Positions 24,904 to 27,859 of a stretch of DNA of 64,000 bases are shown in pieces. Source of the stretch: Ectothiorhodospiraceae bacterium BW-2 (GTDB lineage Bacteria; Pseudomonadota; Gammaproteobacteria; Thiohalomonadales; Thiohalomonadaceae); contig CP032507.1 in the NCBI GenBank assembly GCA_008375315.1, positions 2,097,001 through 2,161,000 on the forward strand. Reading direction: 5' to 3'. The notes under the pieces were generated by a model that searched no databases, had not been told where the DNA came from, and worked only from the letters and a program-made list of their open reading frames with translations. The position numbers and the translations under genes are program-made. How positions within the stretch are numbered: position 1 is the stretch's first letter; every line of letters starts with the position of its first letter.

Positions 24904-25530
24904 ATGAAAACGATGATTATCACCTTGCTATTATTAAGCCATCTATCGAGCGGCTATGCGCTGGAAGTCGCGCCACGCTTAACAGATCGAGAGATTATCG
25001 AATCGCTAGCCGATCTAAAGAGCGACATAGCGCGGGTTGACCAGCGTTTTGATGCTGTTGACCAGCGTTTTGATGCTGTTAACCAGCGTTTTGATGCTGT
25101 TAACCAGCGTTTTGATGCCGTTAACCAGCGAATCGATTCGCTAGAGAAGCAGACCTCAGAGCGTTTTGATGCGATGGAGAAGCAGACGGCAGAGCGTTTT
25201 GACGCAATGGAGAAGCAGACCAACGCCCGTTTTGACGCGATTGACCAGCGTTTTGAGCAGATGAATGCTCAATTTGATAAGCTTTGGAATCTAATGCTGG
25301 TCATCATTGCCGGCGTCTTTGGCCTCATTGGTTTTGTGGTTTGGGATCGTAAAACGGCATTAAAGCCCCTAGAGCAGCGGTTAGAGCGGCTTGAGATGAG
25401 TCTGCAACAAGATTTTGAGATTCAGCATCGGCAGGGCTCAAAGATGACCCGACTGATAAACGCCCTCAAAGAGCTCGCGCAAAGCGACCCAAAACTGCAA
25501 GGGGTGCTGCGCAGCTTTTCTCTGCTGTAG
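24904..25530 (+). CDS. Membrane-anchored coiled-coil protein, paralogue 1
   Basis: 208 residues, function unknown. An N-terminal signal peptide (IITLLLLSHLSSGYA) precedes a coiled coil made of five 7-residue units (VDQRFDA, VNQRFDA and variants, residues 45-79) and three 11-residue units (LEKQTSERFDA type, residues 80-112). A single transmembrane helix follows (LWNLMLVIIAGVFGLIGFVVW) and then a charged C-terminal helix. It is almost identical to the gene at 27101-27781 apart from repeat number. Heptad and hendecad units are both compatible with a continuous coiled coil, so the protein probably oligomerises outside the membrane. Strong SD GGAGAG precedes the ATG. No family could be named. Confidence 0.88.
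   Translation: MKTMIITLLLLSHLSSGYALEVAPRLTDREIIESLADLKSDIARVDQRFDAVDQRFDAVNQRFDAVNQRFDAVNQRIDSLEKQTSERFDAMEKQTAERFDAMEKQTNARFDAIDQRFEQMNAQFDKLWNLMLVIIAGVFGLIGFVVWDRKTALKPLEQRLERLEMSLQQDFEIQHRQGSKMTRLINALKELAQSDPKLQGVLRSFSLL
25036..25239 (+). repeat. Coding tandem repeats: 5 x 21 bp then 3 x 33 bp
   Basis: Within the first coiled-coil gene, 21-base units (GTTGACCAGCGTTTTGATGC type) fill 25036-25140 and 33-base units encoding EKQTxxRFDAM fill 25141-25239. Copy number differs in the paralogue (6 and 4), so these arrays have expanded or contracted in whole units. Confidence 0.9.
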
Positions 25531-25627
25531 TTAAATTATTCAGGCCTTTTTTAGCCCCACCCCAACCCTCCTCGCTGGGGGCAGTGAGTCACAATACCTG
25601 TTTTTTGCTCTTGAGAGAGACGACCCG

Positions 25628-26019
25628 ATGAGTACCCTAGAACAGCATCAGACCCCGCTACCGGCCAACTATCGACTACACCGCTACCACATACAGCGCC
25701 AGCTAGGCAAAGGGGGCTTTGGGATTACCTACTTAGCGCTAGATACCGAACGGAATCGGTCGGCAGTGATCAAAGGTGGTTTCAAACCAAACCCCTACGG
25801 TCTCTACGATATGTTAGGCAATGTGTGGGGGTGGTCCTGCTTAGGGTATGATGAGCGGTATAGTGGAGGCGAAAATCAATGTCAAAATCGTGTAGATTCC
25901 GGCGGCTGCGCCCTCCGTGGCGGTTCATGGTTCGGCAGCCCCTGATCGCGATATTTTCAGGCAGAACGCATGAGACAGAAAATGACCACCAGCATACAAG
26001 GCTAGCTGCCAGAAACTAC
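25628..26019 (+). pseudogene. Serine/threonine kinase / FGE-sulfatase (C-type lectin fold) fusion pseudogene
   Basis: The intact N-terminus (ATG 25628) gives 105 residues: a kinase glycine-rich loop QLGKGGFGITYLALD and a VAIK-like lysine (SAVIK), then a direct jump to the C-terminal part of a formylglycine-generating-enzyme-like domain (NPYGLYDMLGNVWGW, then CALRGGSWFGSP). About the whole kinase body and most of the FGE domain are missing, so an internal deletion fused the ends. A TGA at 25943-25945 interrupts the FGE tail; reading on gives SRYFQAERMRQKMTTSIQG and another stop, after which LAARNYP appears in a shifted frame, matching the usual end of such domains (GFRLAR). Kinase-FGE fusions are known from large sulfur bacteria and cyanobacteria. 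It lies between the two coiled-coil paralogues. Confidence 0.85.
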
Positions 26020-26029
26020 CCACCACCAC

Positions 26030-26998
26030 ATGAAAAAACCGCCCCACACCACCCTCACCGACCCCCACGATCGCTTCTTTCGCGAGAATTTCGAACGCAA
26101 AGAGCTAGCGCAAGACTACCTGCAACACTACCTACCGAACGAGATAGTCGCCCTCCTAGATATGAGCACCCTAACCATCGCCAAAGATAGCTATGTCAGC
26201 AAAGAGCTACGCAAATCGTTTTCAGATCTAGTCTATCGCGTAGAGTATCGTCACGAACCCGACCTATCCGAGGAGGAGAGGCCAGAAGGGGTTCACATCT
26301 ACCTGCTGTTTGACCACAAAAGCACCCCCGACCGCTGGGTAGCGCTACAACTACTGCGTTATCAAGTGCTTAGTGCAGAGGCCTATCGCAAACAGAATCC
26401 GAAAGCCAAATACCTGCCACCGGTCTATCCGATAGTGCTCTACCACGGCCAATCGCGCTGGAATATAGCCCGCGACTATCAAGCCCTAATCCGACCACTC
26501 CCCGCAGCACTCACCCCCTATATCCCCCAATTTCGTTACGATCTACACGACATCTCCCCCCACGGAAAACTGGAACTCAAAGGGGAGGTGTTGACCCGTA
26601 TGGCCTCATTAGCGTTACGCTATATCTATGATAAGCAACCGCTACAGCGACTGCTAGAGCTGATTGACCTAATCCGGCAAATTCAAGATCGCGCCACAGC
26701 GGTAGATGTATTAGAGTGCCTATTGCGCTACTATGTACAAGCCACGGAACGAGTTAGCGAAACCGAAGCGCGTGAAGCATGACAGACCCTACCCGATGGA
26801 GAACCACTGATGCAGACATTTATCGATAAATATGTGCAACAAGGTGAGGCAAATATACTCATCCGCCAACTGAAAACCAAATTTGGTATGGTACCTGGTG
26901 AGACGATGGCAAGGATCGAACAGGCCGATGCCGACACTTTGCTGCGTTGGTCTGAACGCATCCTGACCGCCGAAAAGCCCGAAGATCTATTTCATTGA
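26030..26998 (+). pseudogene. Rpn-family PD-(D/E)XK nuclease / putative transposase, interrupted by an in-frame TGA
   Basis: The frame from ATG 26030 runs 250 residues to TGA at 26780-26782, and the same frame continues without further stops to 26998 (MQTFIDKYVQQGEANILIRQL to EKPEDLFH), which is the normal C-terminal tail of this family. Removing the stop gives about 322 residues. The nuclease core is intact: TDPHDRFFRENF at the start, FSDLVYRVEYR and YLLFDHKS for the catalytic Asp and D-x-K motifs, then LLRYQVL. Rpn-family proteins are DNA nucleases linked to recombination and gene transfer. A single nonsense mutation is the simplest reading; the truncated product could still carry the catalytic domain. 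Confidence 0.85.
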
Positions 26999-27002
26999 GG
27001 TG

Positions 27003-27027
27003 GCAGTAGCATGGACAGCCCTGAGCT
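27003..27027 (+). repeat. 25-bp direct repeat, copy 2 (upstream of second coiled-coil gene)
   Basis: Identical to 24859-24883. It lies 4 bases after the Rpn pseudogene stop and about 75 bases before the start of the second coiled-coil gene, with an extra segment of about 60 bases between it and the ribosome binding site that copy 1 lacks. Confidence 0.9.
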
Positions 27028-27100
27028 ATTGATCGATTAACTTAAGCCATGAAAAGCGCGTTTATTTAACACCACCACCGTATTAAGGAGAGATATAAAG

Positions 27101-27781
27101 ATGAAAACGATAATCATCACCTTGCTGTTATTAAGCCATCTATCGAGCGGCTATGCGCTGGAAGTCGCGCCACGCTTAACAGATCGAGAGATTATCGAAT
27201 CGCTAGCCGATCTAAGGAGCGACATAGCGCGGGTTGACCAGCGTTTTGATGCTGTTGACCAGCGTTTTGAAGCCGTTAACCAGCGTTTTGAAGCCGTTAA
27301 CCAGCGTTTTGACGCCGTTGACCAGCGTTTTGACGCCGTTAACCAGCGGATCGATTCGCTAGAGAAGCAGACTGTAGAGCGTTTTGATGCGATGGAGAAG
27401 CAGACTAACGCTCGTTTTGACGCGATGGAGAAGCAGACGGCAGAGCGTTTTGACGCGATGGAGAAGCAGACCAACGCCCGTTTTGATGCGATTGACCAGC
27501 GTTTTGAGCAGATGAATGCTCAATTTGATAAGCTTTGGAATCTAATGTTGGTCATCATTGCCGGCGTCTTTGGCCTCATCGGTTTTGTGGTTTGGGATCG
27601 TAAAACGGCATTAAAGCCCCTAGAGCAGCGGTTAGAGCGGCTTGAGATGAGTCTGCAACAAGATTTTGAGATTCAGCATCGGCAGGGCTCAAAGATGACC
27701 CGACTGATAAACGCCCTTAAAGAGCTCGCGCAAAGCGACCCAAAACTGCAAGGGGTGCTGCGCAGCTTTTCTCTGCTGTAG
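27101..27781 (+). CDS. Membrane-anchored coiled-coil protein, paralogue 2
   Basis: 226 residues and nearly identical to the protein at 24904-25530. Same signal peptide, same coiled coil built from 7- and 11-residue units, same transmembrane helix (LWNLMLVIIAGVFGLIGFVVW) and same C-terminal helix. It has six 7-residue units and four 11-residue units, exactly 18 residues more than the first copy. SD AAGGAGAG precedes the ATG. Few substitutions outside the repeats indicate a recent duplication or ongoing gene conversion. Function unknown. It is followed by a perfect inverted repeat and the nuo promoter candidate. Confidence 0.88.
   Translation: MKTIIITLLLLSHLSSGYALEVAPRLTDREIIESLADLRSDIARVDQRFDAVDQRFEAVNQRFEAVNQRFDAVDQRFDAVNQRIDSLEKQTVERFDAMEKQTNARFDAMEKQTAERFDAMEKQTNARFDAIDQRFEQMNAQFDKLWNLMLVIIAGVFGLIGFVVWDRKTALKPLEQRLERLEMSLQQDFEIQHRQGSKMTRLINALKELAQSDPKLQGVLRSFSLL
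27233..27490 (+). repeat. Coding tandem repeats: 6 x 21 bp then 4 x 33 bp
   Basis: The 21-base units fill 27233-27358 and the 33-base units 27359-27490 inside the second coiled-coil gene. One more unit of each type than in the paralogue accounts for the whole length difference (7 plus 11 residues). Confidence 0.9.
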
Positions 27782-27793
27782 TTAAGTCGTTCC

Positions 27794-27851
27794 GGCCTTT
27801 TTTAGCCCCCATCCAACCCTTCTCTGTTGGGAAAGAGGGCTAAAAAAGGCC
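27794..27851. terminator. Perfect 15-bp inverted repeat, probable bidirectional terminator
   Basis: GGCCTTTTTTAGCCC (27794-27808) pairs perfectly with GGGCTAAAAAAGGCC (27837-27851); inside the 28-base loop CCAAC (27813-27817) pairs with GTTGG (27826-27830). It lies 13 bases after the second coiled-coil gene and before the nuo promoter candidate, so it would insulate the nuo operon. It is not a textbook terminator because the T-run is inside the left arm. Only the left arm survives after the first paralogue (25543-25557). Confidence 0.65.
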
Positions 27852-27859
27852 ACAAAATC

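Follow-up and report, generated by a model that had tools for sequence, protein, structure and literature searches.

The window analysed here, a 64,000-nucleotide stretch of the single-contig, 4.07 Mb genome of Ectothiorhodospiraceae bacterium BW-2 (CP032507.1, positions 2,097,001 to 2,161,000), contains two closely similar genes whose products, W1 (paralogue 1) and W2 (paralogue 2), carry long arrays of short coiled-coil repeats. The genes have the same direction and the same order of parts: a predicted signal peptide, a conserved segment (EVAPRLTDREIIESLADL), a block of heptads, a block of hendecads, one more heptad, a transmembrane (TM) helix (NLMLVIIAGVFGLIGFVVW) and a tail that starts with WDRKTALKP and ends with RSFSLL (Table 1). 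The first-pass annotation of this DNA had counted five heptads and three hendecads in paralogue 1, and six and four in paralogue 2. These block numbers were exact, and Tandem Repeats Finder independently recovered the arrays with periods of 21 and 33 and scores of 127-220, but the count had left out one extra heptad (IDQRFEQ) behind the hendecads of each array.

Table 1. Features of the two window genes and their three further paralogues in the same genome.
Feature	Position	Strand	Size or units	Basis
W1, paralogue 1	24904..25530	+	208 aa	100% self match in genome search
W1 predicted signal peptide (..SSGYA)	24904..24960	+	residues 1-19	sequence
W1 heptad array, VxQRFDA type	25036..25140	+	5 x 7 residues, 21 bp units
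W1 hendecad array, MEKQTxxRFDA type	25141..25239	+	3 x 11 residues, 33 bp units
W1 trailing heptad IDQRFEQ	25240..25260	+
W1 TM helix NLMLVIIAGVFGLIGFVVW	25288..25344	+		sequence
W1 conserved tail, predicted cytoplasmic	25345..25527	+		conservation, charge pattern
W2, paralogue 2	27101..27781	+	226 aa	AlphaFold2 helix 28-192
W2 predicted signal peptide	27101..27157	+	residues 1-19	sequence
W2 heptad array	27233..27358	+	6 x 7 residues
W2 hendecad array	27359..27490	+	4 x 11 residues
W2 trailing heptad IDQRFEQ	27491..27511	+
W2 TM helix	27539..27595	+		sequence
W2 conserved tail, predicted cytoplasmic, protein identical to W1 tail	27596..27778	+
Paralogue	L021:1589-2266		225 aa; 6x7, 3x11, 7, 11
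Paralogue	L022:2023-2637		204 aa; 5x7, 3x11
Paralogue	L023:1639-2382		247 aa; 5x7, 4x11, 7, 2x11, 7

The arrays of W1 and W2 differ by one heptad plus one hendecad. Outside the arrays only 7 of 423 bases differ between the genes (4 among the 132 of the N-terminal part and 3 among the 291 that run from the last heptad to the end), and the unit changes are therefore recent. Heptad and hendecad units have a common DNA core around CGTTTTGA. Variant units mark the block borders, the last heptad of the heptad block being VNQRIDS and the first hendecad beginning with LEKQT. The antisense open reading frames (ORFs) over the arrays (24954-25223 and 27151-27474) result from the repeats.

A search of the genome revealed three further close paralogues, and the five copies display five different unit patterns. 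Their TM helix and tail are 80-87% identical to those of W1 and W2; compared with the three, the W1 tail showed 32-40 synonymous and 10-16 non-synonymous differences in 82 codons. Purifying selection thus appears to hold the TM helix and tail, with the stalk length seemingly free to change. At third codon positions the heptads differed in 2.2 of 7 within genes and in 4.09 of 7 between genes (0 of 5000 shuffles), the hendecads in 3.27 and 4.29 of 11, respectively (4 of 5000 shuffles). Such within-gene likeness of the heptads would be expected if units copied themselves. The W2 array and that of the paralogue at L023 have 51 exact bases in common, whereas their tails share no run longer than 16 bases and their N-termini none longer than 21, though a repetitive array offers more chances for such a run. 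This tract suggests an exchange of units, possibly by gene conversion, between copies lying almost 1 Mb apart.

When 84,980 species genomes were scanned with a profile, 15 loci were found, including members in Nitrosomonas, Nitrospinae, Desulfofervidaceae, Cytophagales and Bacteroidia; one of the relatives (L042) comes from a metagenome-assembled genome of the Gammaproteobacteria. A Bathyarchaeota record, the last of the 15, was by eye not a convincing member. The narrow profile A1 found matches in 4 of the 369 genomes of the bacterium's own class, and two of these matches were weak. By phylum, the wider profile A3, covering the TM helix and tail, matched 24 of 198 genomes in that of the Desulfofervidaceae member, 12 of 398 in that of BW-2 itself, 2 of 198 in that of the Cytophagales member and 1 of 2 in that of the Nitrospinae member; among Nitrosomonas genomes it matched 5 of 61, some with broken copies. 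The five own copies matched A3 at E values of 1e-41 to 1e-43, the profile being built partly from them. No TM-and-tail relatives were found in viral contigs, plasmids or phages. Several copies per genome were common, often in tandem, with up to nine in one genome.

Members of the family start with a signal peptide, followed by a coil that varies, a single TM helix (FGLIGFxxWDR) and a conserved tail, with F-G-L-I-G-F and W-D-R invariant in all 13 aligned relatives. The segment after the signal peptide is of DREIIE type in W1 and W2 and of DRDRLIR type in the class II relatives. That each protein has a signal peptide and a single TM helix, as previously annotated, is plausible from the sequence: a hydrophobic run with an A-x-A-like site occurs at the signal peptide in 64 of 65 relatives. 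Positive charge is greater after the TM helix than before it in 62 of 65, which fits a topology with the tail inside. At a syntenic site in Nitrosomonas the stalk length was, by species, 84, 116 and, in a tandem pair, 84 + 66. The unit counts that were to be compared among paralogues and relatives do vary, and the fixed copy number named beforehand as contrary evidence was seen neither in the five paralogues nor in the syntenic Nitrosomonas species. In the Nitrospinae member (L044:4662-5219) the stalk repeats an 18-residue super-unit (7+11), equal to exactly five turns of a straight helix. At L048:3773-5234, three tandem members stand directly before a gene of roughly 1000 amino acids that by eye is RND transporter-like.

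Unit spacing and stalk length, the latter taken from a landmark to WDR, were first measured in 65 of 87 relative ORFs from the fetched loci. The remaining 22 lacked the landmark, being fragments, broken copies or ORFs with another N-terminal sequence, for example three L048 copies; an initial landmark rule, which kept 38 of the 87, had been replaced before counting. The spacing motif was of the xR[FILM][DE] type and was written slightly differently for the 65 relatives, for the coil families A-D of the BW-2 genome and for a later set (16 of 22 ORFs measured, 6 dropped) of new relatives from a search of the own phylum. In the first set 135 of 158 spacings were 7 (n = 108) or 11 (n = 27), which is not due to chance, because residue shuffles gave 7 in about 4% and 11 in about 3%. 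The remainder were 4 (5 cases), 14, 15, 18, 22, 25, 29, 40 and 51. The same two spacings made up 79 of 92 in the later set and 205 of 209 in families A-D (19 genes, four coil families), of which B, C and D were sorted by eye and have ends that differ between families.

Stalk length varied between 45 and 159 residues. Where two relatives were at least 80% identical in TM helix and tail, the tails were of equal length in 31 of 31 pairs and the stalks in 2 of 31; all 29 unequal stalks differed by a sum of units (7a+11b), as did 15 of 15 when pairs were made disjoint by a greedy choice. At 60-80% identity the rule was looser (8 of 14 disjoint unequal pairs), and 19 of the 24 stalk differences of up to 30 residues in the first set were 7a+11b. 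The stalk lengths of that set were also periodic, with peaks at 3.58 residues for class I (n = 26) and at 3.60 for class II (n = 39).

A hydrophobic periodicity of 7 or 11 residues was present in W1 and W2, in the relatives and in families A-D. Coiled coils accommodate the 7/2 and 11/3 periods but are disrupted when 2 or 6 residues are inserted (PMC4786415 and PMC5082667, consulted, like the other papers cited here, as excerpts). The AlphaFold2 model of W2 (11 sequences; predicted template modelling score 0.27) has helices at residues 2-14, 28-192, 198-210 and 214-222, with block values of the predicted local distance difference test (pLDDT) of 84-94 over residues 31-160. Helix 28-192 runs uninterrupted across every repeat boundary and the TM helix. 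The break at the repeat boundaries that had been named in advance as contrary evidence is thus absent from the model, which weighs little, as a lone chain of such composition is drawn helical anyway. The first-pass annotation had also proposed that both unit lengths keep the coil in phase. For the core register this is established coiled-coil theory. Measured against a straight helix, each heptad falls behind and each hendecad runs ahead by about 20 degrees, and long one-sided arrays therefore drift, with the core staying in register.

The five copies of the BW-2 genome have straight-rod stalk estimates of 14.0-20.3 nm, at a rise of 0.1485 nm per residue and with an assumed TM helix of 22 residues. 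The reading that we consider best, with a probability of about 0.6, is that the family consists of inner-membrane periplasmic spacers whose length evolves by unit duplication. Each gene would encode a type I inner-membrane protein. After cleavage of the signal peptide, it would consist of a parallel coiled-coil stalk in the periplasm, a single TM helix and a short conserved tail in the cytoplasm. The stalk would be assembled from two interchangeable in-frame units of 21 bp (7 residues) and 33 bp (11 residues). As the units have a common DNA core, any two of them could mispair or cross over unequally, which would add or remove whole units and preserve both the reading frame and the coil core. 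Such recombination is suggested by the within-gene homogenisation and by near-identical copies that differ by units. The tail and TM helix may tether a partner to the inner membrane, with the stalk setting the reach of the N-terminal DREIIE segment, about 14-20 nm.

Several observations weigh against a spacer of this kind. Many relatives are too short to span the periplasm, the smallest stalks measuring 3-5 nm, and some spacings are 4, 5 or 6. A model of a class II member (L140, 4 sequences) has its helix interrupted at 97-103 and, with a mean pLDDT of 53, is too poor to give support. Outside Nitrosomonas, no conserved neighbour was found at the loci examined. In the later set, length differences took the form 7a+11b in just 1 of the 4 pairs with 80% identity or more and in 2 of the 7 with 50% or more, and total length lacked a 3.6-residue periodicity (R 0.20, p 0.53; the Rayleigh p values treat relatives as independent, though they are related). 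Neither length statistic is therefore general. In at least two of the misses, read by eye, one unit type was gained and the other lost. Because 7 and 11 depart from 3.6 residues per turn to opposite sides, phase is poorly reflected in total length, and unit spacing is therefore what the claim is based on.

The range of stalk lengths beside tails that stay constant among close pairs is also what neutral variation would produce, an explanation close in weight to the spacer reading, if somewhat less probable. Repetitive DNA would slip, any in-register length would be tolerated, and the protein would work through its TM helix and tail alone. The patchy and partly decayed occurrence of the family, with 5 of 61 genomes in one genus and some copies broken, agrees with this. 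The arrays are nevertheless kept in register, multi-gene sets of copies persist in many genomes, and the rarity of equal lengths among close pairs would fit a diversifying use as well.

The continuous modelled helix, from DREIIE through the TM helix, would also suit a signalling rod that relays a periplasmic event at the N-terminus to the tail, so that phase and not length matters. The TM helix and tail are the best conserved parts, and the first-set stalk lengths cluster at a period of 3.58-3.60 residues. We regard such a rod as unlikely: the proteins lack a sensor or output domain, the tail is unlike any known domain, and the periodicity failed in the later set.

At four Nitrosomonas sites (L039, L041, L049 and L093/L132) the gene, decayed at L049, lies between two FtsX/MacB-type permease genes, with genes for an ABC ATPase, a DUF1302 protein and a LolA-like protein nearby. 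Pfam was run on the permeases, the ATPase and the DUF1302 gene of L041 and on the LolA-like gene of L039, and the other Nitrosomonas sites were labelled by eye. This arrangement could indicate an accessory subunit of FtsX/MacB-type ABC transporters, but such a role is improbable for the family, as the neighbours elsewhere are unrelated: nuo and ychF-like genes in the window, and guaB/guaA-like, pyrC-like and gltX-like genes at other loci (names assigned by eye).

Searches of Pfam, NCBIfam and PHROGs returned generic coiled-coil rows and no family name, the phage-family rows covering the coil. For the TM helix and tail no Pfam row exceeded the cut-off among the matches listed for the first member. 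PF03670 (UPF0184) passed it on W1 and W2 and was judged a coil artefact, with a best stretch of about 35-39 residues within the heptads. In the PDB, sequence searches gave nothing for W2 at 0.001, and the best hit for the profile, a designed helical repeat, had an E value of 0.014. The family shares a coiled-coil stalk with a membrane anchor with CCDC90/MCUR1 (PF07798, with known prokaryotic members), but in W1 and W2 a conserved tail comes after the anchor, which is not C-terminal. PF07798 was not among the best 25 of 88 and 73 Pfam rows for W1 and W2, nor did the TM-and-tail members of profile A3 match it at E 0.1. Trimeric autotransporter adhesins end in a beta-barrel anchor, unlike the helical TM and tail of the W2 model, and their anchor domain had no row above cut-off among the Pfam matches listed for W1 and W2.

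Coils of variable repeat number are known from other systems. In the alpha-1,3-fucosyltransferases FutA and FutB of Helicobacter pylori, likewise paralogues, the heptad number varies, with 12 and 4 repeats in two related strains, and is said to set how far from the surface the active site lies (PMC5358919). These proteins are enzymes with heptads only and without the plan of signal peptide, stalk, TM helix and tail. The Bdr proteins of Borrelia have an 11-residue unit and a C-terminal anchor. They resemble W1 and W2 as a multi-copy family with imperfect direct repeats, and bdrT has about 9 and about 6 repeats in orthologues otherwise 99.4% identical (PMC3303823). They differ in being borne on plasmids and prophages and probably in sequence; Bdr was not among the Pfam matches listed for W1 and W2. 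In chicken BG molecules the coil varies in length with the number of small exons, each coding for 7, sometimes 8, residues (PMC4046983), but these molecules are eukaryotic and exon-coded, with a cytoplasmic tail. The bacterial O-acetyltransferase NeuO has a slippage-prone, variable number of 7-residue repeats (PMC3046976), but its repeat domain seems unfolded rather than coiled, and its phase variation proceeds by 7-nt units.

A precedent for the proposed stalk is Braun lipoprotein (Lpp), a periplasmic coiled coil whose heptad length sets a distance: with 2 or 3 added heptads (+14/+21) the periplasm of E. coli became wider by 3 and 4 nm (PMC5736177). Lpp is an outer-membrane lipoprotein joined to peptidoglycan by a C-terminal lysine, whereas W1 and W2 have a TM helix, no cysteine and hence no lipobox, and end in RSFSLL. 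Heptad numbers that alter reach (FutA/FutB) and repeat-number differences between near-identical orthologues (Bdr) are already known. No paper on the W1/W2 family was found in the literature searched, which was thin on subscription journals; as far as that literature shows, the family, its double 7/11 alphabet and the occurrence of this alphabet in several phyla and, within one genome, in unrelated coil families are new.

A widespread, unnamed membrane family in which rod length evolves in whole units while the anchor stays constant would be the natural counterpart of the engineered Lpp lengths. It would allow a direct test of whether envelope stalk length is selected or merely tolerated, and would supply coiled-coil biophysics with a matched natural length series of heptads and hendecads. 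More speculatively, and with little likelihood in our estimate, the paralogues may form a periplasmic length ladder, graded stalks written in a two-letter 7/11 alphabet that slip and recombine within and between copies so that reach is quickly re-tuned, with unrelated families (19 genes in four families) having converged on the same alphabet.

Between W1 and W2 lies a gene of the YhgA-like Transposase_31 (Rpn-type) family at 26030-26990, whose frame stops at 26782; it is probably a broken copy, as similar-looking coding sequence seems to continue past that point. Transposase genes of the PD-(D/E)XK nuclease type (PF12784; Transposase_31) adjoin members at two of the four loci in this genome (L022:2669-3574 and window 26030-26782). 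A short ORF at 25628-25945, in which a kinase-like start is fused to an FGE-sulfatase-like piece, is probably a deletion remnant. A 22-base tract upstream of W1 and W2 was considered as a mobile-element end and rejected, since it occurs only at these two places. Rfam detected no RNA other than the tRNA, and no excess of promoters or terminators was found. An inverted repeat, GGCCTTTTTTAGCCC ... GGGCTAAAAAAGGCC, lies at 27795-27852, 3' of paralogue 2, and one of its arms also follows paralogue 1.

Among the other coil families of the genome, family B, unrelated to that of W1 and W2, comprises five near-identical coil proteins (183-262 aa) within about 7 kb (L024:2782-9828), with a constant head, a constant C-terminal anchor and differing 7/11 arrays. 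Family C, also with 7/11 arrays (150-305 aa), has four tandem copies at L027:1074-3653 and dispersed ones at L023:11157-12074, L028:980-1615 and L029:881-1645, and one of two copies scanned matched the CCDC90-like PF07798 weakly (E 0.004). Family D has two copies and a similarly weak match to PF07798 (E 0.0009).

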